Source of the DNA: Cristatella mucedo
Lineage: Eukaryota > Bryozoa > Phylactolaemata > Cristatellidae
DNA: 64,000 nt
Direction: 5' to 3'
Assembly: GCA_009760855.2 (NCBI GenBank)
Contig: WPIO01000032.1
Location: 3,231,001 to 3,295,000 of the forward strand
Shown one piece after another: positions 1,404 through 53,929 of this stretch. The position numbers were made by a program, and so were the translations under genes. Below the pieces are notes generated by a model that saw nothing but the letters and a program-made list of their open reading frames with translations, did no database searches and was not told the origin of the DNA. The stretch's first letter is position 1. Each line of letters starts with the position of its first letter.

Positions 1404-1487
1404 CGCAAGTGTACCCTCCATCATGCTGTCCATCAAAGCAGTACGTGTTCACAGGGCACGGTGCACTGAGGCACCCGTCATAGCGGT
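1404..1487 (-). CDS. Exon 19: four-Cys half-EGF exon, last one visible
   Basis: This is an 84-nt exon, phase 1 to 1. The acceptor is CACCTATCTTGCAG and the donor ACTTGCG/GTGAGT. It encodes [17 protein letters not shown] and ends GGYTC. It pairs in spacing with exon 14. A strong donor follows, so the gene goes on to the left of the window; the stop codon is not here. Confidence 0.8.
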
Positions 1488-4400: not shown

Positions 4401-7400
4401 TCCAACTCAATCTAAAAAAAGTTGGAATGAAACTCTATATGGCAAACCTTCCTGGTATTAAGTACGGTTGGTATTGGTCTTCGTGTCGAATAACAAGTAC
4501 TGGCGTAATTTCTTGCCAAGTTTTATAGCTCATTGTTTATTTGGCCAATTTAAGCCTCACGTATTACCATGTTTTAATGTATGACCTGTGGTCTTATTAA
4601 ACAATTTATTTCCAAAAATCAACTGAATGTGAATAATTGACTGTCTATTCTGCCTATTGCCAGTAGCGTCCTGAATAACAGTTCTACCCCCAACATTCAA
4701 AATTAAATATGTAAGCAAAAGTGTCCGTTCAGTAAATATATTAAATAAACTAAAAGTAAATAGCTAAAAACATATTCCTTACACTTAAATTATCTTAATT
4801 AAAGACTTACTTCCGTCCGCTCGCCGTAGCAGCCGTACACATAGAAACAGATTTCACACTACTATAATCGTATTCATGCCGACCGGTGCTAGTCAGCCGA
4901 ATACCAATTAACTAACTAGCCCATTATTCAGCCCCGAAGCAAATACGATGCGAATGTTTGGTAATGCCCTAACTTAAATATCTTATTCACAAATATAGTG
5001 GCAACGAAAAATAAATAGCCAAAAAACTGTATTAGTACGGCTTCAACTATAAGTAGACATTAATTCATTAATCGATGACACATATCTCATTACAAAATTA
5101 TTTTTCTAAAATTCGTAAAAATGCTATTGATTTCTTTCTAACGTGTTTGGGATTACCTACGAGCGATTTTTTATTTAATTATTCTCCAAAATTGAGTTCG
5201 ACGAGATCTAACGGTTTAATATTTAAATGCTGATCATATATAATGCAGATCTGCGATGATGTGTGAGCTATCGATTGTTATTATTTACGTGATCTATCTT
5301 CTATTAACTTCTATTCAGATTCAAACACGTCTTACCAAGCTTGCATGTTTGGTTTCCGATAAGGTAATATCCTCTCTTGCACACACATTTTGACAATGAC
5401 GACGCGCAGATGGCGTTTGGTACAGACGGGCAGCCAATAGTAGTTGTGCAAGGATTGCAGAAGGGACAATTGTTGATGATCATATTGTTAGCAGCTACAA
5501 ATAAAAATTAATAATAACAGTGAAACATAAGCAGGACTAATCAGCCAGTAAATGACAGCTGTAGACGTTTAGCTGTTTCTGAGTTAAAAACAATAGGATT
5601 TAAGTATTTCCTAAGCTATAGCTTAGGCCCTATTTGTTTCAAATACGAAGCCATCGGATTTCGTCGTGGGTGGGACTGAAAGCTGAAAACGATTTTGGCT
5701 TCGAGCGTATAACGACTCCGCTACCTCTTGGATACTAGTATGGTGCTCTGAAGTTATGAGTACTCAATCGCAGTACTTCATGCCTCGTATGGGTCAGTTG
5801 TGGTCCTTCTTTTTGACAGTGGAATGTAGAGCTACACGTCAAGAGTTTGGATCCTTTGGTATAGGCAACGTCATTTTTGACGTCCGTAGTGGCCTACTAA
5901 TGTCTGCATTCCTGCGTGCATCCGCACGGCTTTTACTCGTCATTAGTGGGGCATCAATGAGCTATGAACACTAGTTAGGAGCGCGGAAAGACGCCTTCCA
6001 AAATGCAAGTAATTAATTATTTAATTAGGCTACGTGCGAAAGGCTTAACAAGCTAGGCATTTGAATACGTAAGTTATCTAACTGTAATTCTATTGCAATA
6101 GCTGATTCACTTAACAAAAAATGTACCTTCTTGAACGCATGAACGTGAAGCTTGATTTGCTCGATATCCGTCAGAACAGCAGCAGTAACCGGCGTTACAG
6201 TATGAATTGGTAATAGAACAATCTCTGTCAGATGTGCACTCAGTCGGGAAGCACTCGTTAGGCGCTAAAACGACACAGAGCATTATTTTCTCAGTAGCCT
6301 TGAACTTATAAACTTACAGAGTTTTTATTTTTTAAGGTGACATGATATTTCATAATTTCATGAGGTTTTAGCCGAATAATAGATTATGAAATGCAATAGA
6401 GACTGAATAAACTATAATGATGATATTTTTTTTGTTGCTATCAGGAATTTGAGAGCTGCGTTCTGCGAGGTAAATCAATACTGGTGGCTTCAACTATATG
6501 TCAGCAGCCAATCGATCTTTTCTCCAGGTGGTTTTTGATGCTATAATGAAGCGATATATATCTTCTTATGATTTTCCATTGATAAGCGCAGTAAAATAGG
6601 TTCTCTTATAGGAGGCTGCACAAAATCCGCTGGCTTAGAAATTAGTAAAATATCCTACTCGTTTTTCTAGACCCAATCTCCGAACCTTCAGTAGTCTCAC
6701 ATGCTACCCAATACGACCATTGTTCATTCGCAAGCTTCAGATCTTCATTCAGAGATGAATCTCTGGAAACGCGTTCCAATAACAGCTAGCGCAGGTAGAT
6801 TGCTGTATTTGGGTTCCGACTTGGTCCAGCTTCAGAAATTTTTACCGTGAATTCGGATTCAAAAATAACCCATAGCTAAACATAGATAGAGCTTGAACGT
6901 TTACATCGGAAATAATAAATTGTCATTGTTTGCAATCCGATGTATTTTTATTTTAGTAATATGGTTTTTTTCGTCAGACAATATTATACTAAATCATTAG
7001 AAAAATATTTGGCTTATATTTACTTTACTAATAAGTTGATCTGCAGCATGTTAGCTTTAGCTCTAGGGACATTGTGCTAAGCATTTAAATCGAAGGTAAT
7101 TAAATTTAAGGAAGGTAAAATGTATGCGTAATATATTTAAGAAATGAGTAAGTCGAGGTATTTCGAATATGCTGCAATGCAAAGTGAAGCTAATAAGGGT
7201 TTGCGACCATACAATCTCCTGCATAACCCTAAATTATTCTTCGTGGCTTTGTGAAGTTACAGATGGAGATACATTATATCTACATCAATATGAAATAAAG
7301 ATTTAAACTCCCACAGTGCTTGTGAATGCAGTAGATTACTTCGGCTCACACCGTGTAAAGTAGTGTTTAGTTGCAGAAACCATTAGGCGGCAACACCACT

Positions 7401-10400: not shown

Positions 10401-13400
10401 AAAGCAACTCCATCTCCCCTGTGTGGGATAAGAGTAAAAACTCATTAATAAGAAATACCATTAGCGTATCTCAGCTGAAGACTCTCTTCCCAAACGTCGA
10501 GGAGGAACCTGCCAGAGAGAGTCCCTATACCTCCTCAGAGAGACTAGCCTCTTCCCTCGGAGGAATAGGGGGACCTGTTCCCCTAACCCAACTAGCAACT
10601 CACTCAGAGTCTATAGATATGGTCTTCAGGAGACGAGCTCTGTTTACTAGACCTTAGTAAGGTAGCCACATTGCTTGCAGAAACCTCTGAGAATATTTTA
10701 AAGAAGGTCACAGGTTGCGATTATGCCATTGCTTTAGTCAGAGAAGACTTTATGGCAACACGAAGGTGCACCCTTTTTTCAGTAAAGAAGGCTGAAAACT
10801 TTTCGGCTAAGCCGTTAACATCTGGTGAGTGAGATGTGTCAGCAATGGCCAGTAAATTGCTTACCGTGCTATAAATTCGTTTTGGTCTGTCTGGCAGAAC
10901 TTCAGTTTTCGAATTAAAACAAAGCCCTAGCTTTTTAAGCTTCCCGGTGTAGACTCTAAGGAAGTCTTCGAAATAAACTAGACACTTGAGGGTAGGTGGT
11001 ACTTAATTAGCGTGTATTTATGCCAGGCGAGATTTTTTTGAACCCTAAGGAAGTGGACACTTGCTGCTGTGGTGAAAGCATGGCTATCTCATCAGGCGGG
11101 TTTTATTACAATCAAAATTCTGTAAGATGTTCTTAAAAGTATGTTCGATGGAACCTTTCTCTGATTATATTCATGTCGTGGAGATCCAATTCGCTCTGAA
11201 AGCCCTAAACTGTGGAGCAAACTTTCACAATTCTTACGCAACTACGACTAATCAGCAGCTGCTCACTGTGGCACATCCTGTTCAGCCATCCTGAGCCGCT
11301 ATTTCTGTGCCACTCGGTTCCTCTACTGTTCTCTTGACTCAGCTTCTCTTCTCACTTTCGCTTTTGTATGTGAGATTAAATCTGTCGGCTATCGAATGCG
11401 TACCAAACGCTTGTTTTAGTCTGCTGAAGAAAACTCCTCTGTGTAACACCCACTTGTTATTCGTGGCTTTGTAGTTACAGACTGAGATATAGTAGAAGGT
11501 TGACGAAAACTTGCATGTGCCGTGATTTTAATTGTAATTTTGTAATTTAGCGAAATAATAATTTAATGAATTTAATAAAGATTTAATGAAAATCACACCC
11601 ACTAACTTCATCCTCACCTTTATCCATCCTATTCTTGCTTAAGTGTCGCCAGTCGTTTTACAAAAAACCAAGCACTACAATGCATAACTCACTGTGATGT
11701 GACAAGAAAATGACACCGCAAAAGACGTAATGACTTCAGCTTGGCACCAACTGTCAGTTATAACCATACAAGTTAATTCATGCTGTTCACATGAACTTGG
11801 CTTTAAGTGAAAATTTAAATCTAAAGCTTATAAAGCTCTTCGTTAAGTTATATTAATAAGGTAGCCTTTGTGGGATCTTTCCCATTCGAGAGCTTTTACT
11901 ATATTCAGTAGGCTAGATTAGGGTAAAAAGGTAGGGTAGAATTCTTTCAGTCATTTTTTCTTGTGAATATTGACTGGTTACTTTGTCAGCTTCCCAATTT
12001 TTAGGGGCAGAAAATTAATGGAACCTTTGATAACCATGTTTAAGAAAATATATTATATTATCACAACGAAATAGCAGAAGGCTTATGTGAAGCGGCTTAT
12101 GTGCAGGAACGCTTGTCGAACGCAATCGAGCCTTACACAATACGCACTCTCCAGAGGCTAGCAGAATAAAGCCGCTGCGGCAGATGCAGTAGTTGATGCT
12201 GAGTCCACTGGTACAGCCCCAGCCACCTTTCAGCTTGAGGCAGTCCACGTTAGACTGGCACTTCACAGCTATAGAAAAGACGCAAAGGTATTCAAGCTGT
12301 TCAGACTTAAACCATACAAGCTGCACGAGTTGCAAAGTGTGAATTTAATTTGCCTGGTCATGGCCAGATGCTCTCCGTAGCTAATTTAACAGCATCACTT
12401 CACCTTGAGGAGCATATACGCATTTAGTTCCGTCGCCGCTGACTTGGAAGTTTTCTTCGCATGTGCAGAAATTGTTGCTGCATATCGCGTAGTTTAAGTA
12501 CTGGCAAGCGCTGTCAGAGGAGCAAGGAACGTTGAGGTTCGTATTCATGTTCAATGTTGGATCTGCAATTCGTTACATATAATTGGCAGCATCTTATTTA
12601 GTTGACTAATTTCCTACTTATAAAAGCTGCAAGCTTTTGTACCCACTTTTGGATCTTGTTTTTATTAAGCTTTTAAAAACAAATCAGGCTCTTTCTTACC
12701 CATATAACGCAGCTTAAATAAAAATTTCCCCATAATAATCTTGCCAATTGAACTAAATATGCATATGTCAGCCACATAAAGTGCTCTCACCATTTCTAGT
12801 GTTAAGCGTCCCCTGATTAAGCGTCTCATATTTTCTGATAAACTAGTGATTGAAGTCATTGAAAATATGTTGTGATAGATATATGCCCAAATAGTGCTTG
12901 CCTAAAGGTTGGTTTCGTTTGACTTCATGACAAGAGCTGACTAGACTTAATTCAAAAGAAAATAATTTCACCTGCCCCTCTCTGAATTAGTTTCATCGTA
13001 CGAATCATATTTTCCTTCCTAATGCGTAGTGCTTTTATTTATTCTGTAAAAAAGGAAGGTTTTATGTTAGTCTGAGTTTATCCTGTCTCTTCAGCCTATT
13101 TGAAGTGCCTAGAAAGACACATAGATGCCTTGAAAAGCTATGCAAATGTGTTGTTACTATATAATTATTATGTTGGAATTGTGTGACGCATTTACTGGTA
13201 ATTTGCCTTGATGAGCTACAATGTATGACTTACCTCTGCATTCGTAACCAAGATTTTTCCCCATGCAGACTGTTCCAGATGGACACCGAACACCCACGCA
13301 TGGGTCTGCTCCTGAATAATCAAAGAAAAGCAAAGTGAGCCAAACACATCACTTTCGAAATAGTCTTCTTAAATATTTTCTACTATTCAGACAAGCGTGT

Positions 13401-33141: not shown

Positions 33142-33216
<75 letters not shown>

Positions 33217-36200: not shown

Positions 36201-39200
36201 CGCTGCTTGACGGGACGATAACGCAGGTCGGCAGAAGTGGTGTGAAGTGGCAACTGTGATGCTCACGACAGACAAGCCTAGCTGCAGAGTTCTGAACCAA
36301 CTATAAGTGCCTGATTGCACAAACAGTTAGACCAGCAAGCTGGAATACTGCGAACTATGCTAGTAAAGTGTATTTATTATTTCCGTATCTAAAGCGTAGA
36401 AAATAGAAGGCCTTAAAAATAAGACCTCTTGCACCCAATCAATCATATTTTTCAAGAAAACATTTCATGCTTGGAATAACACACCAGCTCTCGGCTTGGT
36501 TAACTATCAGGAAAAAACAACGTGCACGAGTACCAGCTTTCAGCGATCGACCGTGTGCCTATTGGGTGTCAGTATTTGTATAAGAACTCACTTTATGAAT
36601 ATTGAACTTCGCAACGCTGTCATCTGTTCTATTGTAAAATAGGGCACACCTTTTCAGCGATCCTGTGCCACCACTCATTAGTTGTATACTCCTTAACTAT
36701 TGAGTATGGTATCATATTTTCTATAGCTTGAGTTAGTATATTCGATTATCAGAAATAGGTTATCTAATAATTTAAAGAAATTGGGAGATTCTCACTTCTT
36801 TTGGAACAAAGGCTGATAGTTTTGGTCACCTAAAAGTCATAGTGTAAACTGCTTGGCTTGATTAGTCAGAATTGGCTTTTTGAATGCATGCTCCAAGTCG
36901 AACTCTCGCTCGATTCTGCTTACGTAGTAAATAAATTTATTGATGCATTTCTTAGTAGATAATAGCCAGCTACGTTTATAGAAGCTTTAGCTTAGCAACA
37001 AGTCTCAATTGAGCCCAAAAAAATTTCTGGCTTGAATCATCTCATTTTTGCAGGTACCCTTCTGACTTGCTTCGACAAAAATAGCCCCTGCTAAAGCCCT
37101 GCAAAAGCTTTCTTGAACTTGAGCTGGAAATCGCGGATAAAAAAACTCAATTCCCAGCCTCTTGCTTTTTGGAATGGCTTTTTGACAAGAGCATTGGAAA
37201 TTTCTCTGGGTTTAGTGTTGTTAGATAAATAAAGGCATATTAAGAATACTGAAGATTTTTTCAAAAAGTTTGACAATTATAAGACTTTGCTGCTTTCTTT
37301 TTTCTTAGTGTCAATTTTAATAGAGTGCAGGCTTAAAAGAAGCCTTCCTCTTTCTTCTGGAATTCAAGGGCCAGTAGTAATGAATATTTAAAGTTAATAA
37401 CCACAAGTCTAAAGACTTACCTGTGTACCATCCACCTTAGCTATAACTGCCAGGCTGTCAGGAACCGTCCACCTGTCCGGTGTTCTCGGAAATGGATACT
37501 CTTTGCCCCAGACTGGAATAGCAGGACATAAAATCAACGCAGGGCTCATACAGAGCAGAAGAATTTATAATTGTGATGCATAGCCACATTAGTATTATTT
37601 TTATTTATAATTATATCATTGTTACTACATTAATCTAATTGGGTCCTTGTAAATTTGTAGAGTTACATGAGGAAGTATATTACATTATATATGCATTGCA
37701 GTGCTGTTAATTCCAAATGCTAACTCTGAGTCTTAAAATGCAGTTCCGACGACATCCAGCTGTTTCTTATCTTCAAAACTCTCAGAATCAACTACAGTGA
37801 TTTACAAACTGACAAAATGCTTTGCAGACGTTCAGTTCTGGATTTCGGTCAACATTCTTAGGCTAAATGATGTTAACACCGAGCTGCTACTTATGGATAC
37901 CCCAAAGCTAACAGCTATGATACTGACTTTGCTGTGTTATCCTGGGCTGTCATAGTGTGACCGTCGCAGATTGATATTAATTTACGTGTCTTCTTTTATG
38001 TTTATACGTTGTATTCAAAAGACTCTCAACACAGTGAGGGTATCTGTTTGATTTTTGTCCATGATAGTGGACTACTTAAAGTAGAATCTGGCTAAATATC
38101 TTAATGGCTCGGTTCTCTCTACCTTAACTGCTGCAATTCAGTATCGAGATTTGGCAAGGCTATCGGAAAATGACTTAAGCCTCAACAAATGTTGATGAAT
38201 GCGGCTTCTAGATTGGTCTTTAAAGCTCAGAAACTCCGTCGCTCCTCTCATTTGCCAAAGGAGCTGCAACTAGGAACTACTTCACCAAAAGATGCCTTCT
38301 CGCCCATAGCTTCTTGGGGCAATAGCTTTGTTCTCTTACCATTTCACTTAAAAAAAGTTGGTGACAGATTATTTTTTCCCGGCACTAGATCGTGGAATGC
38401 ACGCACTTGCTTTTTTGCGCAATGACATCTTGTTCTCTTCTACCGAATGTGGAACAGCTTTTCCAGTCTCAAGTCATTATTACCCGCTATCTCCTATCTT
38501 ACCTATCCTTACCCCTTGTCAGCTTACACGCTACCTCTAGGCCAATTACTCCTACTTACTTGCTTCCTAGTGGGGAGTCAGGATTGTATGTATGTATGTA
38601 CGCATCTCCGTCTGTAACTACACAAAGTGATAAAGACCATGTGGGTGTTACGCAGAAGAGTTTTGTATAGCACACTCACAGCCTAAGCGGTTTTCGGTAC
38701 GCATTCGGTAGCCAACAAACTTCATCTCACGCAAGAAAGAAAAAGTGGGAAGCATAGCAGAGTCAGGAGAGCAATTGAGGTAGTGAGTAGCATGGAAGTA
38801 GCAGCTCAGGACCGCTAAAATGAATGAGCCATAGTCGGCAGTAGGAGAGTAGTTGTCGTTGCGTAAGAATTGTGGAAGCGAGTTCCGCAGTCTAGGACCT
38901 GCAGAGCTAAAGCTTCTGTCTCCAAACGTCTTTAAGCGGAGGAATGGAACATCAAATGTATTGTCCTACCGGGACCTGAGGGCGCGAACAGGCTGAAACT
39001 GATGCGGCAGTTCAGCTAGGTACGAATGAGCCAAGCCGTGGCGGGCCTTGTGGGTCAGCGTAAGAACTTTGCTCTGTATCCGTTGCTCAACCGGCAACCA
39101 TCCTAGCTCTTTCAGCAAAGGAGACACGTGCTCAAACCGCTGTGACTTGAAGACTAGCCTTGCAGCCATATTCATGGTCAGCTGCAGTGGATAATAGTTT

Positions 39201-42200: not shown

Positions 42201-45200
42201 TCACGAATCATGCGGTAACCAAAAGCTCGCTGTATCTTATTTTTACGTGCAATTGATTAAAATATTAAGCTCGCTGTATCTTATTTTTACGTGTAATCTT
42301 AGAGATTTTGCGGTTAGGCTGCAGCATTCAAATACCTTAGGGATGTCGCCTTCACAAATCATGCGGCAACCAAAAGCTCATACCTTCAGTGGGCTGGAGG
42401 AGCTCTTCCATCTTGTCGGTAGTTAATCCCCACTCTCCTTGATAACCTCGAGTAGATGACGCTTGCACCGCTATCTCTTTGGCACTGATTATGCGAGTTC
42501 CTGAGAAGTCAGCTAAAACGCGCAGTCGGATAAGTCAACAAAACCTTTAGCGGGACGTGCAGGGGGATTAAAAGCGTCGAGCGCATTCTTCTCGTCGGCT
42601 CCTCGAGCTAATGACAGTACTGTGCGAGGAAGTGACGTACGCCTGCACTACCGCAAGTCTGGGCTTCGGATGTGCAGAATTTAATGCTGCCCTCTCACTG
42701 GGAATACTCACAAATTGTGTTTCCGTTGCTGTGAACATAGCTGCAATGAGACACAAACGGGTCATAATTCCATCTTTCCTGCGGTTGGCCATAGGGTGAA
42801 TTTATTATTTGCCAAGCGTGAGAGCGGTCTAATCGTTTTGACAGCTGTCCATTGCTGCCGTAGGTCTGTCCTCCACAAGCAAGAGAAATGGGGGTGGAGT
42901 GACAAGGGAAGTAGCCCCCGACGTCTACGTAGTCGTTGACATCGGTAACGAACTGACGGTACCTGAAATTTTAAATAATTTTGTTACGAGAAATCCCGCA
43001 TAATTTCCGGAAAAGTTACCTTAATTTAAGTCAAAAAGAAATAACTCATATCGTGTAGATGACGCCGAGTATTTATTATGTACATGTATTTGCTAAACTA
43101 AATTTGAAACCAATATAGCAGCGTAAATCGCAAAATAAAATTTAGCTGTAAGAGTGCAAGCCTTTTGGAAGCATATGAAATTTACTCTTAACTTTGTAAA
43201 ACACATCTTAATTCTCGTACTGAACTGTTCACTTATTATAGTGTTGCACACCGTATTCAGAGTTTCAAGCCTTTTTTAAGCTATTTGGGTGAAAACAGAG
43301 CACTTGATTAACTTCTTGCTATGCTGGCCCAATAAAAATACCTGTGACTGAAGTGTCAGAAAATAATCAAAATTAAAGCACGGGCAGTGCTTGAATTTTT
43401 TTTAATGCATGCACATAGAAATTGAAAGAGCGAAGTACCTCTATAAAATAATTGTAGACTAAATACAACGATAATACCAATAGAAATAAATGTATAGAAT
43501 ATTCAATTGTCCCTAAGAGAACTAAATCTTATTCTAGGCACTTTAAATATGCTATGCTGCAGAGGAGTCGTGTAAATTGATTGGTGGTAACGTGCAGAAT
43601 CTTGGCAACCTTTAGCACACGCAAGAAAAATTCATTCCCACGAACTAGGAATGAAGAATATGAGAAACTGGTGGTTTCATCTGCGAGAAACAATTGAAAG
43701 ACTGCAAGTGTCTACTCACCACCTCAGCTGCTCTCCTGACTCTGCTATGCTTTCCACTTTCTCTTTGTCGCGTGAGACGAAGTCTGTTGGCAACCGAATG
43801 CGTACCGAAAGCCGCTTAGGCTGTGAGTGCGCTATACAAAACTCTCCTGCGTAACACCCACATGGTCTTTATGACTTTGTTGAGTTACATACGGAGATCC
43901 AACAACAATAGACAGTCATAAATTACCCTGCTCATTCACTGACTTCACTACATTTTTCTTTTCGCAAGGGACGCGAGATAAAATATAGCTAATTAATAAT
44001 AATAATAATATTGTACTTGATAAAGCGCCCTCAGAGAACTTAATCTCTTTCTAGGCGCTTTACATTTGCTGCAAAGGGAAATGCAATTAAATGGTAAGTA
44101 AAATCATGCTTGAAAAACAGACAAAATGAATAACATGGTTAGGGGTGACATGCACAGGGTCAGCATGCAAATGTGGTTAGTGGCAGCATGCACAGTTTCA
44201 GCACGCATAAGCACGTGAAGGACGAATCACAGGGACCCACTAAATGCTGCCCTAAATAGGTGTGTTTTTAAGTTCCTTTTAAATGTGGTCAAGTCAGGGG
44301 ATGTTCTGGCGCAAATTGGGGGGGAGTTCCAGGCTTTGGGAGCATACGAACTAAATGCACGGTCTCCAAAGAATTTGAGGTTTGTATGAGGTATTTCTAG
44401 ACTGTTGGATTCCGAAAAGCGGGTGGTACGATGCTTGGCCTGATGGGGGAGTATGTCGGAGAGATAGGCTGGAGCCATAGAATGAAGGGACCTAAAAGCG
44501 AGCGACAAAACCTTAAAGTCAATCCGTTGCTTGACTGGTAGCCAGTGCAGGTCGGCGAGAAGTGGAGTAATGTGTTGGATGCGACGCTCACGACAGACAA
44601 GCCTAGCTGCGGAGTTTTGCACCAGCTGCAATCCCCTGATCGCACATGCTGGTAGGCCAGTAAGCACTGCACAATCAATGAATTCTTCTAAAAGCGCTAG
44701 TCTTTAGGTGTCTATTTGATTTTATATACTTTCCTTATATCAGTTTCAGCTTTGAAAAAGCCCCTTACAATTTGTTATGTAGTACAGACAGTAGAATATA
44801 AGCATTATTTCTTTCGAATGATAGCTATCAGCAACTGAAATAGCCCGGTTTCTTTCTTGAGAATTTAATATTTTGGTTAAGTTTAAATGGCAGTGAGGTT
44901 CATGTGGACTAAAAACATAGTGGAAAAACTCGCGTATAATCTATACATGAACGATGATATACTGATTGAAATCAATTACGCGACGACTCTGATGATCTAA
45001 TCATCTTGTCAAGAAAGCTTTGAAAAATGTTCATATAATATAGCTATGGCGATCTTCGATTCAAAATTTTCATAAGCGTCCAACAAACCTGGAAATTCTT
45101 CCGGCTGCAGCAACAGGAGGCAATATCACCGTCACATGGTTGTTATCATTTGTTGATATGATAGTGATGCACGCGTAGAAATCGTCCCTGGGTGGAAGGT

Positions 45201-48200
45201 AAACGTAGTACTCTCTACCAAGAGCTTCTATTGGAAATACTACAATTCATCGGATCATTCTAAAGTACTTACACGAGTAGTTTATAACAAGCTTTGAAGG
45301 CCTAATCAAGGTAATCATTTGCTGCAAGTCTCACTATTTTTCTCAAAGACTAGTTAGCAGGCACAACAATTAACTGCAGCCGCATTGCTAATGCTCACCA
45401 GTGAATGCTGAACCACTTCGCCAATCAAGCGATCCCAACTGAACGACGACATCATCTTCTGTCTGAAAAGCATTAGTACTGTTTCCAGTTTCTTGAAATG
45501 CAAGTACAGCTAAGGCATTAAACAATACACTTATTTTAATTCGATTTGTAATCATCTTGGAATAAATATAAGAATGACTCAAAGAATGTGAGCTAGCACT
45601 AAAGGGGTAGGTTATCTATTCTAAAAGCTAAACAATTTTACATAACTGCTGCCGCAGCTAGGCTACGTGTAGTACCTTCGCGCATAAAATTCTTTACAAT
45701 AATTGAAGCACTGCTGCGATGAGGTTTGATGCTAGAATTATCATCTTGATAACAGTGAATGCCAACAATACCGCATTAAAAACTGTGAATTTTGATAAGG
45801 CAGATATTATTTGCCATAGCTGCAGCTATTACCGTATCTTAAGATAAGTAAAATAGACTAGCCTTACTGCTGAGGTCAGGCTTCGACTTCATATCAAACT
45901 TTTTTCATAAACGCGAAACCAGGAACTGGCTTTCTATAGATGCGAATTCGTTTGTTACTCTAGCATAAAAGATCAAACAATTAAGACTTTAATTCACAGC
46001 TGGTAAGAACTACAGACAGCGAACTTCTTAAGAGAAGTAGTGTTTGTGCATGCGTGTGAGGGCATGCTCGTGTGAGCTGGGTGGTGATGGCTTGGAGTGT
46101 GTGCATTGCATTGTGTTCCTGCACGAATGCGTGCGTGGTAGCCCGTGCTAGCTCAACCATTAGTTTTTTCACTGCTGAACTTTGTAAGAGAATGTTCGGC
46201 ATGCCACTCAATTTTCCATTGGTACTAAAAGCATTTGTTGAAATTTGGATAATTACTTATTAACATCTCGCACTTTGATGCTTTTCAAACAAAAGATAAA
46301 GACTGCTTGAAAGTAACATTTGCAGCACCAGGAATAAACACTCACCTAGGAAATATTTAGAATATAGACCCCATTATTACCGAAGATTTCCTATTCTTGA
46401 GAAAATAATATTAGCTTAAACAAGAAATACAATATTGACCTCATTAGCTTGGTCATCCTCAAAATACGACAGGACTTGATATAATCGACGGTTGGATATA
46501 TTTGAAGATGCTGCATACCACTGTATGCTTTTTAACCCGGCTATGGAGTAATGGCTTGAAATTTACCTCATCCTTAGCGTCCATTTGCATTGTACAACGA
46601 TATGCCCAGTCAAATCTTTTTAACTAAATCTTCACTTTTAGCCTTTGTCGATGGTTGGTTACTATTGTATTATTTCCATCGCTTCTGAACTTCAACAGTG
46701 CCTCCTGAGAAGTTAATTCATGTCCACAGCATTTGATGTTATTTTGTTTTCTCAACGAAGGCATTCAATTATAGTTTAGCTTTCTGGTCAGTATAAAAGC
46801 ATTACCAACGTCTAGCTAGTATTATTTCCTATCCAGTGTGTCAGCAAACAAATTTTAATTGAACAATATTCACGGTAAAACTAAGCTTCGTCTCATAGAA
46901 GAGCACCGTATAGTCGTAAGTAATACTAGCTGGCTTGACAGACTCTTTTGTATAGTGACAGAAGAGCCTTTACGGCTATTACCACAGCTTGCAGCAGCGA
47001 TAAAGGATTGCCCACCACAGGATTTGAACCCTCGACCTCGGTACTGAAGTCGTGGAAAGCAACCACCTTACCTAGTGAGGCATCACGGCTCACCAGTTAT
47101 GTCAGTACACCCATTATCAGAGGTGCATGTGTTGACGCACTTACAATATAGTCCAGCGTGTCTGTTTGGGTGAATTTTTAGAAATTCTGAATTGTCGTGG
47201 AAGACATTCCTTGAGATCGGTATGCACGACCAAAATAGCTGATTCAGATCACAATAGCCATCACAGCACTTCGCGAGTAATCTGTCTCCGTATTAAAAAA
47301 AGTCCTAGCTGATTAAACAGCCTCTTTTGTATAGCGACAAAAGAGCCTTTATGGCTATCACCACCGCTTGCAGTGACGATAAAGGATCGCCCGCCGCAGG
47401 AATCGAACCCACGATCTCGGGACCGAGGTCGTGAAAGCAACCGCCTTACCTAGTGTGCGATCACGGCTCACCGAATTAAGTGTCCATCGTACTGTAGAAG
47501 CTCGCAACGCTTTTAGAGACGAATTTTTTTTTTGAGTTTACACTAAATACTCCTTGCAGATTTTTCCAATGGAAAGCCTAGATAGAAAAAACTTTTTATC
47601 AGTCCTCCAATTTCAAACAGACAAGTCTTGTTGTCGAACCGGCTCAAAAATAACCTTAATATCCAGCTGAGTCTCTTTGATTGGAGTACACATAGAAAAG
47701 TAAAGTTCAGTAACCTCTCCTGCCTGACTCGGTAACTGTTTCTTTTTCGTCACAGACCGCTATTAAGATCCTAATCTGTGGAACTTACTTTTTCAATTCC
47801 TACACGAGGAAATCATCTCTGCTGATCCCGACTCTGACACATTCATCCTATGAAAGAGTTACGTATGCTCAGACGCGATCTCACAGATGCAGGACTAACT
47901 TGGCCATTGTGAGCTTATTCAAGTATGGTGAGATATTTTCAATATCACCTTGCTACACCCTTAAGTAGCCAGTCTTGACTGTTGAGCTTGTTTGTTCATC
48001 TAGCAGAAGGTCATTTTGGTACAGGACATCCAGATTCTATGGACTGGCAATTAAAAATGTTCTCTACTGTCCCAGCTAATTTTTATAATTAGGCTTTCCG
48101 GTTTCTAGGTGAGGCTGAGTTTGACCATTTCTACTAGTAGAAAAGTAAAACAGAATTTGTTAGTGGTACTGTAAATTTTGCAAACGCCTTGAGTTGTAAT

Positions 48201-48602
48201 TTAAAGAGTTGCAGCTATAAATAAAAATTGTATTTCATTAAAAATACGCATGTATTTTTAATGTCATTACACCTAACAACGATTCTCACTGGCCACCATC
48301 AAGATATAAAATTACCAATGTTGGATTGCAACTGTATAAAAAATTTATCAGCCTAAATTCGCAATAAAATTACAAAGTACATTGCACTTGTAAATGAAAT
48401 AATTACTCACTATAAGTGTTGCAGCTTTCAGAGAGATCGAGCACATATCTGTTGGTGTTGGATCCGTTATGCACTGATCGTATGGCATTGCTCTCATCGA
48501 TTGGCTGAATGGCAATTGTAGGGCGTATGGTTTATTAACTGGTGTGTTGAATGGTAAATACGTGGGAGGCTTTCCACAGCGAGCTAGCTGTGTCAACATG
48601 CC
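1404..48602 (-). CDS. Multi-exon gene: IgGFc-binding-type domain plus acidic linker plus EGF-like array (partial)
   Basis: I joined nineteen exons by eye from GT-AG borders, matching phases and continuous protein sense: 48602-48411, 45462-45399, 45227-45089, 42740-42712, 42512-42384, 37512-37421, 27197-26890, 21185-20915, 20825-20709, 20135-20024, 17694-17647, 17457-17326, 16985-16827, 13311-13234, 12562-12404, 12268-12137, 6264-6127, 5494-5336 and 1487-1404. They give about 847 codons with no stop. Residues about 86-440 follow the strand pattern of the IgGFc-binding protein N-terminal domain ([30 protein letters not shown]). Residues about 470-497 carry DNDCDG and DEDGDG acidic loops, and residues 501-847 are Cys-rich EGF-like modules. 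Family knowledge places such proteins outside the cell. The true start (signal peptide) and the stop codon were not found, so both ends are open. All LINE and SINE insertions fall in introns, which argues for a working gene. The function is not known from sequence. Confidence 0.85.
1870..2035 (+). repeat. Degenerate SINE S1 or LINE A tail
   Basis: The stretch agtgcctaaaatagattgg ... ttcttgtggcgctatacag followed by a T/ATT-rich end matches the tail shared by SINE S1 and LINE A. The upstream tRNA-like head is too worn to score. Confidence 0.4.
2300..3346 (+). mobile_element. LINE family A, 5'-truncated copy (end of RT)
   Basis: The frame starts in the reverse transcriptase downstream of the catalytic core ([16 protein letters not shown], then SARNLGVIL and [14 protein letters not shown]). 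It continues to [20 protein letters not shown] and, after one frameshift near 2925, to [14 protein letters not shown] and [14 protein letters not shown] with a stop at 3107-3109. These are landmarks of the C-terminal part of CR1/L2-type LINE polymerases. The 3' UTR (3110-3345) ends with a hairpin and ATT repeats. The copy is dead: it is truncated at the 5' end and frameshifted. Confidence 0.9.
3347..5335. other. Intron, AT-rich, no feature recognised
   Basis: No protein-like frame, RNA head or LINE tail was seen. The base mix is AT-rich with long runs of A and T. Confidence 0.5.
5336..5494 (-). CDS. Exon 18: eight-Cys EGF-like module
   Basis: This is a 159-nt exon, phase 1 to 1. The acceptor is TTTTTATTTGTAG and the donor AGCTTG/GTAAGA. 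It contains [35 protein letters not shown] and TC. The final K-C-V-C-K-x-G-Y stretch is clearly EGF-like; the additional N-terminal C-x-x-C pair is extra. Confidence 0.83.
6127..6264 (-). CDS. Exon 17: eight-Cys module
   Basis: This is a 138-nt exon, phase 1 to 1. The acceptor is TGTCGTTTTAG and the donor AAGAAG/GTACAT. The peptide runs [14 protein letters not shown], then [16 protein letters not shown] and SCVQE. Eight cysteines with a CCC run are unusual for EGF and point to an EB-like or lineage-specific Cys module. The phase agrees with exons 16 and 18. Confidence 0.8.
6265..7217. other. Intron, AT-rich, no feature recognised
   Basis: I see no coding or repeat signal that I can match to other parts of the window. 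Confidence 0.45.
7218..7285 (+). mobile_element. LINE family B, 3' end fragment
   Basis: The sequence cataaccctaaattattcttcgtggctttgtgaagttacagatggagat parallels the last part of the family B 3' UTR (compare 11440-11485 and 43850-43890). Confidence 0.6.
7286..8480. other. Intron, no feature recognised
   Basis: No match to the repeat families listed here and no exon-like frame was seen. Confidence 0.4.
8480..10616. repeat. Block of direct and inverted repeats, origin unknown
   Basis: The base mix differs from its surroundings: it is rich in CTC/GAG and aggagg/cctcct words. Two arms of about 66 bp, at about 10001-10066 and 10411-10477, are inverted copies of each other (gagatacgctaa, cattaa-gagtttttactctta). 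A 27-bp palindrome lies between them at 10337-10363. The words cccctaaccca and cctcgtcgaggata recur. The right border at about 10616 is sharp, abutting LINE B sequence. Open frames here (8719-8910, 10421-10657) do not look like proteins. A foldback or other non-autonomous element is possible. Confidence 0.6.
10337..10363. repeat. Perfect 13-bp-arm palindrome
   Basis: The arms gggttaggggact and agtcccctaaccc flank a single central A. Parts of it (cccctaaccca) recur at 10577-10588. Confidence 0.9.
10617..10990 (-). mobile_element. LINE family B fragment (upstream of RT core)
   Basis: Aligned by eye with 40258-40640: both contain ggtcttcaggagacgagct, aaggtagccacat and gtaaagaaggctgaaa. It corresponds to the linker between endonuclease and RT. 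There are many small changes and no open frame. Confidence 0.8.
11150..11490 (+). mobile_element. LINE family B, 3' end
   Basis: It begins with the end of the polymerase frame (compare [16 protein letters not shown] in the 29.7-30.1 kb copy). It continues through ttctcttgactcagcttctc, gaatgcgtaccaaacgc and taacacccacttg to the conserved terminus gttacagactgagat. Confidence 0.8.
11491..12136. other. Intron, no feature recognised
   Basis: AT-rich sequence with no match to the repeat families of this window. Confidence 0.4.
12137..12268 (-). CDS. Exon 16: six-Cys EGF-like module
   Basis: This is a 132-nt exon, phase 1 to 1. The acceptor is TCTTTTCTATAG and the donor ATTGT/GTAAGG. It contains [29 protein letters not shown] and GEC. 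There are six cysteines, again a C-x-C pair followed by x-x-G-F. Length and order match exon 12, suggesting module duplication. Confidence 0.82.
12404..12562 (-). CDS. Exon 15: six-Cys EGF-like module
   Basis: This is a 159-nt exon, phase 1 to 1. The acceptor is ACGAATTGCAG and the donor CTCAAG/GTGAAG. The peptide includes [32 protein letters not shown] and TKC. There are six cysteines with a C-x-C pair and a D-G turn. The intron to exon 16 is only 135 nt. Confidence 0.83.
13100..13172 (+). repeat. Worn LINE A/SINE tail
   Basis: The stretch gaagtgcctagaaagacaca ... tgcaaatgtgttgttactat resembles the shared tail, with a decayed second hairpin arm. Confidence 0.45.
13173..13233. other. Short intron end before exon 14 donor
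   Basis: Only the splice donor side of exon 14 is recognisable. Confidence 0.4.
13234..13311 (-). CDS. Exon 14: four-Cys half-EGF exon
   Basis: This is a 78-nt exon, phase 1 to 1. The acceptor is TGATTATTCAG and the donor TGCAGAG/GTAAGT. It encodes [18 protein letters not shown] and ends GYEC. Only four cysteines are present (C-x4-C-x5-C-x8-C), the first part of an EGF-like fold. It closely resembles exon 19 in spacing. Confidence 0.82.
14319..14392 (-). repeat. LINE A/SINE tail
   Basis: An ATT run (read as aataataat), then ggcgctctaggagaactacatctctttctaagcactctgcattt, is the shared hairpin tail on the minus strand. Confidence 0.65.
16250..16332 (+). repeat. LINE A tail
   Basis: The tail reads tttgcagcaaatgcatagtgtctaaaaagagattgagttctctgaggatgct followed by attattact. 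The hairpin arms agaga/tctct are intact. Confidence 0.75.
16827..16985 (-). CDS. Exon 13: six-Cys EGF-like module
   Basis: This is a 159-nt exon, phase 1 to 1. The acceptor is GACGTTATTGCAG and the donor GTATCG/GTATGC. The peptide contains [10 protein letters not shown], then [19 protein letters not shown] and KRC. The C-x-C followed by x-x-G-Y is the end of an EGF fold; the first Cys spacing is looser than in canonical EGF, so EB module is an alternative. Confidence 0.83.
17118..17210 (-). mobile_element. LINE family B, 3' end fragment
   Basis: It contains the reverse of the family B terminus: tccgtctttaactccacaaagctgcaaggactaagtgggtgttacgcg. It sits inside the 340-nt intron between exons 12 and 13, so that short intron carries a retroelement relic. 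Confidence 0.65.
17326..17457 (-). CDS. Exon 12: six-Cys EGF-like module
   Basis: This is a 132-nt exon, phase 1 to 1. The acceptor is TTGCTTTTAG and the donor TGTATAC/GTAAGT. The peptide contains [26 protein letters not shown] and GFCI: six cysteines in an EGF/EB-like spacing with a C-x-C pair. It has the same length (44 codons) and similar Cys order as exon 16. It lies 189 nt from exon 11. Confidence 0.83.
17647..17694 (-). CDS. Exon 11: 48-nt acidic loop exon
   Basis: This is a 48-nt exon, phase 1 to 1. The acceptor is CCTTTTTGAAG (weaker) and the donor AGCCCAG/GTAAAG. With the split codon it encodes [16 protein letters not shown], a direct continuation of the previous DNDCDG loop. The two loops together make a paired acidic calcium-type site. 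Confidence 0.8.
17695..20023. other. Intron between exons 10 and 11
   Basis: It holds one LINE A tail (18312-18410) and a short GTATG-rich run (18600-18665). No exon-like signal was found. Confidence 0.45.
18312..18410 (-). repeat. LINE A tail
   Basis: A run of aataat units is followed by acacctccagagaacttaatctctttttaagtacttcacgtatgttgcaaat, the reversed family A 3' end. Confidence 0.75.
20024..20135 (-). CDS. Exon 10: acidic DNDCDG linker
   Basis: This is a 112-nt exon, phase 0 to 1. The acceptor is TATTGTTTTGTAG and the donor CTCAATG/GTAATC. It encodes [20 protein letters not shown], continuing [10 protein letters not shown]. The D-x-D-N-D-C-D-G-x-x-x-E-E motif resembles the putative calcium-binding loops (thrombospondin type-3/MopE-like) that often follow an IgGFc-binding-type domain in invertebrate proteins. 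The family association is from general knowledge, not a search. Confidence 0.85.
20709..20825 (-). CDS. Exon 9: end of IgGFc-binding-type domain
   Basis: This is a 117-nt exon, phase 0 to 0, separated by only 89 nt from exon 8. The acceptor is AAACATTGCAG and the donor AACCTG/GTATGT. It encodes [20 protein letters not shown] and then a Gly/Tyr-rich end with [13 protein letters not shown]. In the family the domain closes with 'F-x-x-x-x-Y-G-(Y/F)-S', which is visible here. Confidence 0.83.
20915..21185 (-). CDS. Exon 8: IgGFc-binding-type domain, C-terminal part
   Basis: This is a 271-nt exon, phase 2 to 0. The acceptor is TTTCACTGCAG and the donor GCCGATG/GTAAGC. It encodes [20 protein letters not shown], then [18 protein letters not shown], and ends [14 protein letters not shown]. 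The 'G-L-I-V-(D/N)-x-x-x-(I/L)' strand corresponds to the part of the family where an extracellular loop shows a short ligand-like strand. It follows exon 7 across a 5.7-kb intron in the correct phase. Confidence 0.85.
21186..23184. other. Intron, no feature recognised
   Basis: Several short frames (for example 21713-21940 and 22333-22536) show no family resemblance and are treated as chance. Confidence 0.4.
23185..23830 (-). mobile_element. LINE family A copy with an insertion
   Basis: The stretches 23185-23250 (gagtttcaggctttcagagcatacgaactgaa) and 23640-23830 (agggacctaaaa, cagacaatcctagctgcaggcttttgcaccacctgtaa) match two neighbouring parts of the copy at 43994-44685. The roughly 390 bp between them is foreign and includes a repeat shared with 41300-41450. 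Confidence 0.7.
23250..23370 (+). repeat. Short repeat shared with 41.3 kb
   Basis: The sequence ggtggagccaagggcaggagt, and further on cagtcaccaacgacaaaatga, aligns with the minus strand of 41305-41445 (gcggagccaggggagggg, ctgtcaccaatgacaaaa). The spacing is similar. The family is not recognised. Confidence 0.5.
25570..25960 (-). mobile_element. LINE family B, C-terminal fragment
   Basis: It parallels 29760-30110 and 38780-39150: ggaagtagcagctc, tgcgtaagaactgtgga, cagtctaggacctgcaaag, caaaggaggtacgtggct. The frame is broken throughout. Confidence 0.8.
25985..26094 (-). repeat. LINE A tail
   Basis: The stretch aataataaaga ... atagcgccctcagagaactcaatctctttctaggtactttacatatgctgcaaag is the reversed 3' end. 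It directly abuts the next, oppositely oriented LINE A copy. Confidence 0.8.
26095..26757 (+). mobile_element. LINE family A, worn 3' half
   Basis: It matches 2620-3345 in order: cgtcgaaacttctgtaaat, gtgcaaaactctac, cagccaccaggtagcctatcgacttcaagat, aaagcctggaactc, then the 3' UTR and ATT repeats. Several stops and indels are present. Confidence 0.8.
26890..27197 (-). CDS. Exon 7: IgGFc-binding-type domain, largest exon
   Basis: This is a 308-nt exon, phase 0 to 2. The acceptor is CGTTTCTAACAG and the donor TTTAC/GTGAGT. It encodes [20 protein letters not shown], a linker with [14 protein letters not shown], then [20 protein letters not shown], and ends [16 protein letters not shown]. The D-K-P-I-M-V strand and the later D-P-x-x-A-M stretch are typical landmarks of the family. 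No Cys is present in this exon, unlike vertebrate FCGBP D domains, which are a different module. Confidence 0.87.
27198..28059. other. Intron, no feature recognised
   Basis: AT-rich. A minus frame at 27201-27473 continues past the acceptor of exon 7 but has no coding character. Confidence 0.4.
28060..29200 (-). pseudogene. Tc1/mariner-type transposase, broken
   Basis: Reading the minus strand through several frameshifts gives, in order, [13 protein letters not shown] (helix-turn-helix region) near 29170 and GRPRAS near 28950. [15 protein letters not shown] (first catalytic Asp context) follows near 28680, then [20 protein letters not shown] near 28510. [16 protein letters not shown] (second Asp context, normally QDNDPKHTA) lies near 28400 and LQWPS-SPDI near 28320. 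These are the ordered landmarks of Tc1-type DDE transposases. Stops and frameshifts make it a relic. I could not identify the terminal inverted repeats or TA duplications. Confidence 0.85.
29255..30160 (-). mobile_element. LINE family B, 3' part with an insertion
   Basis: A minus frame (30147-29698) encodes [40 protein letters not shown] and [16 protein letters not shown]: the end of a LINE polymerase. The 3' UTR then follows, ending in a CATA-type microsatellite (29255-29275). Compared with the copies at 38.6 and 43.8 kb, about 240 bp is inserted in the UTR (about 29372-29610). The insertion is bounded by imperfect direct repeats of gccggc-tctct-atg. Confidence 0.85.
30161..32457. other. Intron, no feature recognised
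   Basis: Only small frames and a short cctta run (31905-31925) were seen. Confidence 0.45.
32458..32595 (+). mobile_element. SINE S1 copy
   Basis: The tRNA-like head has box A ggcttggcccactggttaagg; box B is decayed. The tail reads gtgaagtgcctgaatagagattaagttctcttagagcgttaaac followed by aattaattatt. It is the same layout as the intact copy at 59701-59830. Confidence 0.8.
32805..32895 (-). mobile_element. LINE family B, 3' UTR fragment
   Basis: The stretch attgggtgttacgcatgagattt ... aagcctaagcggcttttggtacgcaa matches the reversed 3' UTR at 38645-38705. Confidence 0.75.
33143..33236. repeat. (CT)n microsatellite
   Basis: There are about 34 CT units, followed by impure ctatct units. Confidence 0.95.
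33650..33990 (+). mobile_element. LINE family A-related C-terminal fragment
   Basis: The order ccaaactctgcggctaggg, cctgtactggcttccgatcaagcagc, ccttggaagaccatgcctc, cccaaagtccggaatgact parallels 2720-3015 but is clearly diverged. There is no open frame. Confidence 0.7.
34565..34725 (-). mobile_element. SINE S2-type, tRNA-like head
   Basis: On the minus strand, ggacttagctaagtggtaagg fits a Pol III box A, and gatcgtgggtttaagctcgg lies where box B would be (degenerate). The following part (tttctcactgcaag) resembles the S2 copies at 46.9 and 47.3 kb. Confidence 0.65.
35715..36405 (-). mobile_element. LINE family A, 3' part
   Basis: It starts with aataataat and a reversed tail (ctatctaggcactttacatg) and continues in parallel with 44060-44670: gagttccaggctttggga, cgacagacaagcctagctgcagag. 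The frame is broken. Confidence 0.85.
36406..37420. other. Intron, no feature recognised
   Basis: No repeat family match and no exon-like frame was seen before exon 6. Confidence 0.4.
37421..37512 (-). CDS. Exon 6: IgGFc-binding-type domain, WGKEYPFP strand
   Basis: This is a 92-nt exon, phase 1 to 0. The acceptor is TCCTGCTATTCCAG and the donor ACACAG/GTAAGT. It encodes [20 protein letters not shown] and [11 protein letters not shown]. In this family a 'LG-x-E-Y-x-V' strand is followed by a strand ending in 'IVA-x-x-D-x-T'; both parts are visible. It is flanked by introns of 4.9 and 10.2 kb, each filled with mobile elements. Confidence 0.85.
37513..38179. other. Intron, no feature recognised
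   Basis: AT-rich sequence with nothing I can match to a repeat family or an exon. Confidence 0.4.
38180..38578 (+). mobile_element. LINE family B, C-terminal fragment
   Basis: It encodes [17 protein letters not shown] and LPKELQ, the family B word AARLVFK...LLKEL. It meets the next copy tail to tail at about 38580. Confidence 0.75.
38580..41230 (-). mobile_element. LINE family B, longest copy (endonuclease end to 3' tail)
   Basis: Read on the minus strand through frameshifts. The endonuclease end is near 41150-41000 ([26 protein letters not shown]). A linker frame follows at 40989-40519 with [10 protein letters not shown], then RT motif A near 39890 ([20 protein letters not shown]). Next come [16 protein letters not shown] near 39710 and the YHFYADDTQ catalytic box near 39630. 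After these, [34 protein letters not shown] and [20 protein letters not shown] appear. The 3' UTR ends in TATG/CATA units (38585-38602). The order AP-endonuclease then RT fits the L2/CR1/Rex-Babar group. It is 5' truncated and has several stops. Confidence 0.9.
41305..41445 (-). repeat. Short G-rich repeat with possible G-quadruplex
   Basis: On the minus strand there are four G runs (gggg-a-gggg-caga-ggg-a-gggg, 41397-41417). The flanks are shared with 23250-23370. The family is unknown. Confidence 0.55.
41446..42101. other. Intron, no gene
   Basis: A local direct repeat cgcatttatacg(t/c)acgtaacg occurs twice at about 41980-42020. Nothing else was recognised. Confidence 0.45.
42102..42383 (+). 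repeat. Imperfect tandem duplication next to a splice donor
   Basis: A segment starting near 42102 (gctgtatcttatttttgcg) and ending at caaccaaaagctc near 42228 is repeated at about 42226-42380. The core agattttgcggttag ... aaaagct occurs twice and the head cgctgtatcttatttt three times, at about 42102, 42227 and 42269. The right copy ends exactly at the donor of exon 5, inside the intron. Identity between copies is high, so the event looks recent. Confidence 0.8.
42384..42512 (-). CDS. Exon 5: IgGFc-binding-type domain, middle strands
   Basis: This is a 129-nt exon, phase 1 to 1. The acceptor used is GCGTTTTAG (AG at 42513-42514) and the donor GAAG/GTATGA. It encodes [20 protein letters not shown] and then a segment with [13 protein letters not shown]. 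The pattern small-S-x-x-I-x-V-Q matches the strand where this family has 'S-x-x-P-I-x-V'. A second AG lies 12 nt further in (AG at 42501-42502) in the same phase, but joined to exon 4 it would make the codon TGA, so the outer AG is favoured. Confidence 0.8.
42712..42740 (-). CDS. Exon 4: 29-nt micro-exon
   Basis: The acceptor is TTGTGTCTCATTGCAG and the donor ATTT/GTGAGT, both strong. It is the only segment I found between exons 3 and 5 that enters in phase 2 and leaves in phase 1, as needed. It encodes (S)YVHSNGNTI and extends the beta-rich domain plausibly. A longer open frame through it (42792-42568) starts with a hydrophobic stretch resembling a signal peptide, but that reading does not fit the phase of the next exon. 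Confidence 0.7.
42741..43494. other. Intron, no feature recognised
   Basis: No repeat match was found. Confidence 0.4.
43495..43650 (-). repeat. LINE A tail
   Basis: It contains cctaagagaactaaatcttattctaggcactttaaatatgct, the reversed 3' hairpin, followed by UTR-like sequence. Confidence 0.7.
43720..43900 (+). mobile_element. LINE family B, 3' UTR
   Basis: The sequence runs ctgctctcctgactctgctatgc, then accgaatgcgtaccgaaagccgcttaggctgtgagtg, then taacacccacatggtctttatgac, in the same order as the reverse of 38640-38770. Confidence 0.85.
43994..44685 (-). mobile_element. LINE family A, well kept 3' part
   Basis: A minus frame (44667-44227) encodes [59 protein letters not shown] and [14 protein letters not shown], with no frameshift. 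The 3' UTR and the full hairpin (aaagcgccctcagagaacttaatctctttctaggcgcttt) precede aataat repeats. This is the best-preserved C-terminus of family A in the window, hence among the younger copies. Confidence 0.92.
45089..45227 (-). CDS. Exon 3: first conserved strands of IgGFc-binding-type domain
   Basis: This is a 139-nt exon, phase 1 to 2. The acceptor is TATTTCCAATAG and the donor TCCAG/GTTTGT. It encodes [19 protein letters not shown] followed by [21 protein letters not shown]-aromatic strand, then a short loop and a T-V-x-V strand, is the signature start of the IgGFc-binding protein N-terminal domain. This is the strongest single piece of family evidence, together with exon 7. Confidence 0.85.
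45399..45462 (-). CDS. Exon 2: entry to IgGFc-binding-type domain
   Basis: This is a 64-nt exon, phase 0 to 1. The acceptor is TGCTTTTCAG and the donor ACTG/GTGAGC. It encodes [21 protein letters not shown]. Only 171 nt of intron separate it from exon 3, and the split codon G/AA gives Glu at the join. Its role is to lead into the first beta strands of the domain. Confidence 0.7.
45463..46926. other. Intron, no feature recognised
   Basis: Only short chance frames were seen up to the first S2 SINE. Confidence 0.4.
46927..47095 (-). mobile_element. SINE S2, copy 1
   Basis: The minus strand has a tRNA-like head (tgagccgtgatgcctcactaggtaaggtgg ... gagggttcaaatcctgtgg, box B ggttcaaatcc) followed by a unique body ending in a hairpin of ctcttttgt/acaaaagag type. 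It is about 80% like the copy at 47304-47473 by eye. Confidence 0.8.
47304..47473 (-). mobile_element. SINE S2, copy 2
   Basis: The minus strand reads gtgagccgtgatcgcacactaggtaaggcgg ... gatcgtgggttcgattcctgc, with a perfect Pol III box B (ggttcgattcc). The 3' part folds as ggctcttttgt ... acaaaagaggc. It has the same orientation as copy 1, about 210 bp away. Confidence 0.85.
47474..48410. other. Intron, no feature recognised
   Basis: AT-rich sequence before the donor side of exon 1, without a repeat match. Confidence 0.4.
48411..48602 (-). CDS. Exon 1 of model: leader with three Cys
   Basis: Sixty-four codons, phase 0 to 0. The acceptor is TTTATTTCAG and the donor ATA/GTGAGT. The peptide ([16 protein letters not shown] ... 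[19 protein letters not shown]) matches no domain I can name; it holds three cysteines and is proline-rich. It precedes the IgGFc-binding-type domain and joins exon 2 in frame. A Met sits at codon 2, but the sequence after it is not a signal peptide, so a further upstream exon is likely (see the candidate at 50146-50227). Confidence 0.65.
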
Positions 48603-49606: not shown

Positions 49607-49768
<162 letters not shown>

Positions 49769-53060: not shown

Positions 53061-53929
53061 TATACTACCAGTCGGACGTGCGATCTCGAGGGGCGTGTCA
53101 TTTTCGGGAAAGTTTTATGTTTTATTATTTTCCAAAGTTATTTTTTGAGGGTCCGTTTAGGGCTGAGTAGCTTGTATCCGTAGAGTTCACCAGAAAACCG
53201 CAGTTCCGGCTCCGTTATTTTTCAAGGAAAATTATTTTGTTGAGCTCGATTATACTTCCGGTTTAAATAGATCTTACATAACTATTTTATTGACCAAGTT
53301 CCAGTCATCTGACAACTACCAAAATTTGTGATTGCATTTATTACTAGTTTATTTTTTAATATGCAAGCTTCAAACAAATTTAAGTTTTTGACTACTTCTT
53401 AAAATATTTGGCAGGCTACCCCGTTAACAGGTAACCGGTACGAAACAGGGCTGCAACGATGCATGCTCTTTGGGTGCCTATAGATTACCAGTGGCCAGGT
53501 ATTCCTACATAGCCAATCATTTTGCTTTTTTTTGTTTCTGGGATAAGCTATATCAAAGCAAAAGTGAGATACATGAATGACTCGTGCGTCACTTTTGAAT
53601 GAAAAGTAGCATTCCGGCGTGTTGGAGTGCAAGCAAGCAAAGCAAAAAGAGGCTCCTCGCACGCTGACATTACCCTAGTTGTCTTTACGCCTACTGCGGA
53701 AATGTAGAGGATATCGGTCGTCGGTACAGTTGTCTGAGCAGTTGGCTGTCGATCAAAATCTGCGTAATTTGGTGTATATATAAACACAAATTCTCGTCCA
53801 GTGATGCCGGCGGCTGTTAATGAATGTGCAGAGGCATTAGGGCACGCTAGAGTGATATGGTAGCATTACCTTCACGACTCTGCGTCGCCGTCGTACTCAC
53901 TGATGCTGGCTGTCTGTGGATAGAATAAC

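Follow-up and report, generated by a model that had tools for sequence, protein, structure and literature searches.

A many-exon gene that joins an IgGFc-binding head, an acidic linker and an EB-module array and probably ends in a membrane span

The stretch of DNA analysed here, 64,000 bases long and referred to as the window (C255:3231001-3295000 in its own genome of 572,011,866 bases on 688 contigs), raises the question of which protein its minus strand encodes, where the gene begins and ends, and whether the product leaves the cell. A preliminary description had read positions 48602 to 1404 as 19 exons for a secreted-type protein that joins an IgGFc-binding-like domain, an acidic linker and an EGF array. 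The 19 exons were rebuilt from splice sites and open frames on the minus strand, which yielded 921 residues with matching phases and no stop, and the exon carrying GREYYV began at residue 86, as had been described. However, neither limit is a true end of the gene: the start is probably at 53958, and the low end runs out of the window. The full model has 30 exons and 1,551 residues and spans 85,978 bases; 21 of the exons (987 residues, hereafter the window protein) are in the window, and exons 22-30 lie below its position 1 on contig C255. All 4,656 coding bases are stop-free with consistent phases, and exons 13-29 both start and end in phase 1 without exception. The locus is a genuine animal gene with many exons, it encodes an extracellular protein, and most of it lies inside the window. 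We read it, with somewhat better than even confidence, as one gene whose product is a type I membrane protein, about 1,551 residues long. This protein would comprise a signal-like peptide, an IgGFc head, a two-loop DxDxDG linker, about 16 EB/TILa-like modules (mostly with an exon each), a single membrane span and a cytoplasmic tail rich in Ser, Pro and His; the head would stand on a stiff stalk with a calcium-set hinge, and ligand binding would be linked to the cell.

A profile search of the spliced protein identified the Pfam family IgGFc_binding (PF17517) at 76.1 bits (E 3.8e-21, cut-off 25.6), and the window protein gave 73.3 bits (E 2.7e-20); the head proposed at the outset is thus borne out. 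The matching stretches cover profile positions 8-286 of 297 and lie close to the protein N-terminus. The match begins in exon 5 (45089..45227, profile position 8), which alone scores 14.5-16.4 bits, under the cut-off, and it is followed by exon 6 (42712..42962), an insert-like exon with 3 Cys that is required by phase and neutral to the profile. Exons 7 (42384..42512) and 8 (37421..37512; its donor, CAG/gtaagt, scores 12.6) reach 34.1 bits by themselves (E 2.2e-8). When the domain was assembled stepwise, exons 5-8 scored 47.8 bits, the addition of exon 9 (26890..27197) raised this to 67.7, and exon 10 (20915..21185), the end of the domain, to 76.5; adding exon 11 (20709..20825), which has WWPINL and sits between domain and linker, gave 76.0, which dropped to 75.2 once exon 6 was omitted. 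Neither exon 9 alone nor the pair of exons 10 and 11 alone gave a Pfam match, and exons 9-11 together scored 17.5 bits, under the cut-off. Exons 7-10 therefore have good support from the IgGFc profile, and exons 6 and 11 are placed by phase and splice sites only. The codon score was uninformative here (exon 9, -0.03; exon 10, -0.01). Searches with exons 5-11 found no sequence match among solved structures at E 10 and no relative on plasmids; exons 5-10 found no relative in IMG/VR or in GTDB genomes (15 GTDB pattern matches, 0 confirmed), and head plus linker had no NCBIfam match. Just within the intron after exon 7 there is an 84-base direct duplication (42145-42228 and 42296-42379, 94% alike).

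The 5' part of the gene was assembled from other evidence. Exon 3 (48411..48602, 64 codons), the first exon of the preliminary description, was placed by phase, and exon 4 (45399..45462) by splice sites and phase; the codon score of exon 3 is +0.09, with another frame at +0.11, and no Pfam family lies above its cut-off in exons 3 and 4 together. An upstream G-x-x-F strand, of the kind expected in this family, was sought before the paralogue loci were inspected, and the paralogues in the genome, read by eye, do carry G-x-x-F strands N-terminal to the part covered by Pfam. Such a strand is found in exon 2 (53674..53813, AGITGREFVFIYTPN), where GREFVFIYTPN probably forms the N-terminal strand of the IgGFc head; this exon joins the exon at 48602 in phase. 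Upstream of it, exon 1 (53901..53958, MAREQLLILVLFYPQTASI) has the start context GCCATGG, encodes a signal-peptide-like sequence, ends in phase 1 and is open and splice-compatible with exon 2, which gives it moderate support as the probable start. The motif class of exon 2 occurs twice in the six frames of the window, and both occurrences fall within exons of the present gene; in 20 Markov sequences the mean was 0.15, with a pattern that was written after both occurrences had been seen. A profile built from six paralogue domains gave 3.1 bits for residues 1-198, 2.8 bits for exons 2-4 and 4.5 bits for exon 2 alone; of 200 shuffles, 4 reached 3.1 bits, the best scoring 5.1. Since this is not significant, the case for exons 2-4 is made by motif, phase and splice sites, and the homology of exons 1-2 is not statistically proven. 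Taken together, position 53958 is the probable start of the gene, and exons 1-3 probably belong to it.

Between head and stalk, two exons encode an acidic linker: exon 12 (20024..20135) holds loop 1 and exon 13 (17647..17694, 48 bases) holds loop 2, both with the DxDxDG pattern. A search of the six frames of the window for D-x-[DN]-x-D-G returned 3 matches, namely the two loops and one in a simple repeat. The linker matched no Pfam family at E 10, and an NCBIfam acidic repeat reached 7.7 bits on it against a cut-off of 41. Judged by its motif, the linker is possibly calcium-binding. That such a linker accompanies IgGFc domains had been proposed, and the proposal gains support from the same genome, where a similar linker on contig C222, DDDLDILVNEDC, adjoins IgGFc domains (loci L026-L028, pieces of C222:6372001-6508500).

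After the linker, the window holds eight Cys-module exons; six of them carry 6-8 Cys, and the other two carry 4 Cys each (spacing 4,5,8 and 4,5,10). Exons 14 (17326..17457) and 15 (16827..16985) are 6-Cys modules, EB-like and EB/EGF-like, respectively; exon 14 alone scores 15.3 bits for EB (PF01683; cut-off 24.3) and exon 15 scores 14.9 bits for EB and 23.3 bits for FXa_inhibition (cut-off 33.4), all under cut-off. Exon 16 (13234..13311) is a 4-Cys, TILa-like module (spacing 4,5,8) with 17.4 bits for TILa, short of the cut-off of 27. The 6-Cys exons 17 (12404..12562) and 18 (12137..12268) score 28.8 bits for EB together, above the cut-off; alone, exon 17 gives 20.8 bits and exon 18 gives 17.0 for EB and 20.5 for D_CNTX, under the cut-offs. 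Two 8-Cys, EB-like modules follow, exon 19 (6127..6264; EB 16.9 bits alone) and exon 20 (5336..5494; no EB match alone), which stay under the cut-off as a pair (19.6 bits), and exon 21 (1404..1487, 4 Cys, spacing 4,5,10) ends in a donor from which the model goes on below the window. On longer segments, EB was found in the window tail of the spliced protein at 27.5 bits (E 3.4e-6), in exons 21-28 (402 residues) at E 1.3e-5 and in the 721-residue array of exons 14-28 at 37.7 bits (E 2.2e-9); the scores above the cut-off were 27.5, 28.8, 25.7 and 37.7 bits, depending on the segment scanned, and within the 987-residue window protein the family reached 20.8 bits, under the cut-off.

The tail had been described as EGF/EB with at least eight Cys modules. 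The count stands, with eight module exons in the window, seven more downstream and about 16 modules in the full model. The EB half of the name holds, but the EGF half does not (the highest scores were 20.6 bits for cEGF, with a cut-off of 26.6, and 18.2 bits for EGF, with a cut-off of 21.5), and 'EB array' fits better because the EGF families stay under their cut-offs. Other Pfam matches, including PGC7_Stella, OSK, D_CNTX and FXa_inhibition, were at chance level or under cut-off, and a comparison of the window tail with solved structures at E 1 gave no sequence match. We also counted candidate module donors with a loose splice and Cys filter, which retained 14 on the minus strand of the window (all 8 used ones included), 3 on the plus strand and 1-4 in each of 10 Markov sequences. 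The same filter gave 8 minus and 3 plus in 30 kb of outer flank, and 3 and 0 in the 10 kb of locus L013; Cys-rich open segments in the 40 kb below the window numbered 10 minus and 1 plus. Given the count in the outer flank, such numbers are weak as proof of an array, which the EB profile supports better.

The gene model continues for about 32 kb below the window, where seven Cys-module exons come first, then an exon with a membrane span, and finally a tail that is rich in Ser, Pro and His and ends in a stop. Module exons 22-28 lie on the minus strand of C255 at 3229639-3229490, 3225549-3225424, 3221667-3221536, 3214623-3214459, 3208546-3208322, 3208196-3208011 and 3207770-3207633; exon 26, ending at 3208322, stays in phase only through a GC-AG intron (TAG/gcaagcc). 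Exon 29 (C255:3199635-3199468, minus) encodes the end of the stalk and the span, with a mean hydropathy of 3.36 over 19 residues, followed by RRRKRDRSKR. After an intron of 83 bases (GT-AG), exon 30 (133 residues) starts at C255:3199384 on the same strand and supplies the tail and the stop, with AATAAA about 107 bases past it; 23 Ser, 12 Pro and 12 His are among the last 134 residues. If the 83-base intron is not spliced, the membrane exon runs to a stop after a shorter tail. Between the last of the module exons and the membrane exon lies a gap of about 8 kb; the membrane exon could belong to another gene, and the gap could hold more exons. The predicted features of a type I protein are a signal-like peptide, a single span judged by hydropathy and the RRRK flank, and the product is probably such a protein, anchored in the cell membrane. 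The earlier term 'secreted-type' is thus probably wrong, because the part of the model downstream of the window closes with a membrane span and a cytoplasmic tail.

The rest of the window contains several repeats. Broken copies of non-LTR retroelements form two pairs, 2672-3342 with 43994-44669 (92.6% alike) and 29639-30141 with 38672-39175 (85.7% alike), and an RVT_1 match lies at 39815-40117 on the minus strand (E 1.6e-8). Two copies that are 83% alike, at 46926-47094 and 47305-47472, carry a GGGTTCGATTCC-like box; Rfam gave no match to them, and we take them to resemble a tRNA-derived SINE. Dinucleotide arrays of CT and TA occupy 33144-33236, 49609-49766 and 59613-59690. Rfam and tRNA scans of the whole window returned no matches.

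Three other readings of the locus have to be weighed. The same head, linker and modules could make up a secreted mucus, adhesive or matrix protein, with the membrane exons spliced out or belonging to another gene. The 8 kb between module and membrane exons would allow this, and the documented relatives are described as secreted (oyster, PMC6337334; the frog glue protein PRIT-Dg, PMC11237159). However, the membrane exon fits the phase of the chain and comes with an acceptor and a basic stop-transfer, and a small intron follows it, then a stop and AATAAA; moreover, when the same acceptor filter was run over about 68 kb, two of the matches listed were this exon, two were of low complexity, and one (3171678) was weaker, with a hydropathy of 2.02. 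We regard a secreted product as unlikely.

The other two readings concern the gene itself. Upstream of the IgGFc domain, the signal-like exon 1 lies in phase, and a second signal-like ATG at 45555 competes with it as the predicted start, in which case exons 1-3 would not be part of the gene. This ATG was our first choice: its phase fits, and when the hydropathy of its own peptide is taken as the threshold, only one is retained among the 73 open ATG 50-mers of the minus strand. It was later ranked lower on account of the intron-like composition of its extension and the GREF exon upstream. The extra 93 bases are 30% GC with a codon score of -0.23, as against 47% GC for the exons of the 45555-start model together, and this start would lose the GREF exon and the strands before EALGREYYV that are present in paralogues, which makes it quite improbable. 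Finally, the locus might be a decayed copy in which some exons are no longer joined and no working protein is made; the N-terminus is divergent, and there are many retroelement relics in the window, introns included. Against this stands the frame of 30 exons, stop-free and consistent in phase throughout, and we consider decay very improbable. The reading that we retain is the membrane-anchored protein that starts at 53958.

Relatives of the head occur elsewhere in the genome. A PF17517 profile search returned 36 exon-level matches (not genes), all above the cut-off, on C266, C676, C56, C38, C222 and C55, compared with 0 of 14 control genomes. No exon of the present gene was found by this search at E 0.001, and none on C255, because the gene is split into weak single exons. 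One differently built member, L001 (C266:1620694-1621746 region), has an open frame of 832 codons in which a single exon contains the complete IgGFc domain (profile 1-297), then a Ser/Thr/Pro-rich stretch; when residues 1-640 were compared with L001 by BLASTP, the domain core (283-410) aligned at 26.9 bits (E 0.002), along with a second piece at chance level. The tandem genes on C222, in which IgGFc domains alternate with DNDCDG/DNDNDG linkers (at least 3 domains in 10 kb of L026, by eye), resemble the present gene in having an IgGFc domain beside an acidic linker. They differ in that domain and linker are repeated, and at these loci, which were read in frames of at least 75 residues, the tail search matched nothing but the linker. 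Of the 15 matches of that search in the genome, 10 fell in the window gene, 2 in the downstream exons (E 0.49 and 1.06) and 3 to linkers on C222 (E 0.004-0.023); a second EB tail was not found in the genome by this one search.

Compared with the family domain (PF17517/IPR035234), the head matches significantly near the N-terminus, but it has about 70 extra residues (exon 6) inside and divergent N-terminal strands. The EB modules share with PF01683 the C-x5-C...C-x-C...C core, and the array and exons 17+18 exceed the cut-off; unlike in the family, the loop lengths vary, most single modules are under the cut-off, and 4-Cys, TILa-like modules are interspersed. In human FCGBP, an H domain of 450 residues contains the IgG Fc-binding domain (PMC9354016). 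The N-terminal domain of FCGBP is of the same family as the present head, but FCGBP continues with VWD-C8-TIL repeats, for which the present protein gave no match above the cut-offs, and this one probably ends in a membrane span. VWD and C8 had no match at E 1 in the window protein, exons 21-28 and the unspliced membrane exon, and TIL (at most 16.1 bits against 24.5) and TILa (17.4 against 27) were under their cut-offs.

Several invertebrate and amphibian proteins offer further comparisons. The frog glue protein PRIT-Dg has a signal peptide and IgGFc domains and no VWD (PMC11237159); it differs in having several IgGFc domains with disordered repeats, and the part consulted mentions no Cys array or membrane span (PMC11237159). 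Oyster IgGFc-binding proteins have been proposed for mucus and larval adhesive (PMC6337334). One of them, EKC18867, is annotated as an IgGFc-binding protein with seven EGF domain sites; it is also annotated as zonadhesin-like and predicted to be extracellular, and the text consulted mentions no acidic linker or EB array (PMC6337334). The limpet adhesive candidate P-vulgata_2 is predicted at the cell membrane and has EGF x11 and BLAST similarity to an IgGFc-binding protein, but the domains listed for it in the part consulted are vWFD, EGF, KSPI and TSP1, with no IgGFc domain (PMC7333891). A search of open-licence literature found no IgGFc domain combined with an EB module; this architecture may be described in other literature.

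The IgGFc domain is named for its antibody partner, IgG, which is absent in invertebrates. If the present animal is an invertebrate, the ligand of this domain cannot be IgG. In the mechanism that we propose, the cell would present a beta-rich IgGFc head on a long, stiff, disulfide-rich stalk, calcium would set the hinge between head and stalk, the head may bind glycoprotein, mucus, matrix or microbial ligands, and the cytoplasmic tail would couple this binding to the cell. A role in mucus, adhesion or defence, as first suggested, may fit such a protein. More tentatively, and at slightly less than an even chance, it may be a membrane-anchored IgGFc receptor whose EB stalk raises the head about 16 disulfide modules above the membrane, whose hinge is set by calcium and whose cytoplasmic tail is rich in Ser, Pro and His; it would then represent a branch, at the cell surface and possibly active in signalling or phagocytosis, of a domain family that the sources cited describe in mucus and glue proteins, without a second copy in the genome by the one tail search. 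The gene also shows that one genome reuses a domain-linker unit with different tails, and, if the membrane-anchored member is real, the question of the IgGFc ligand would become one of receptor and ligand on cells.
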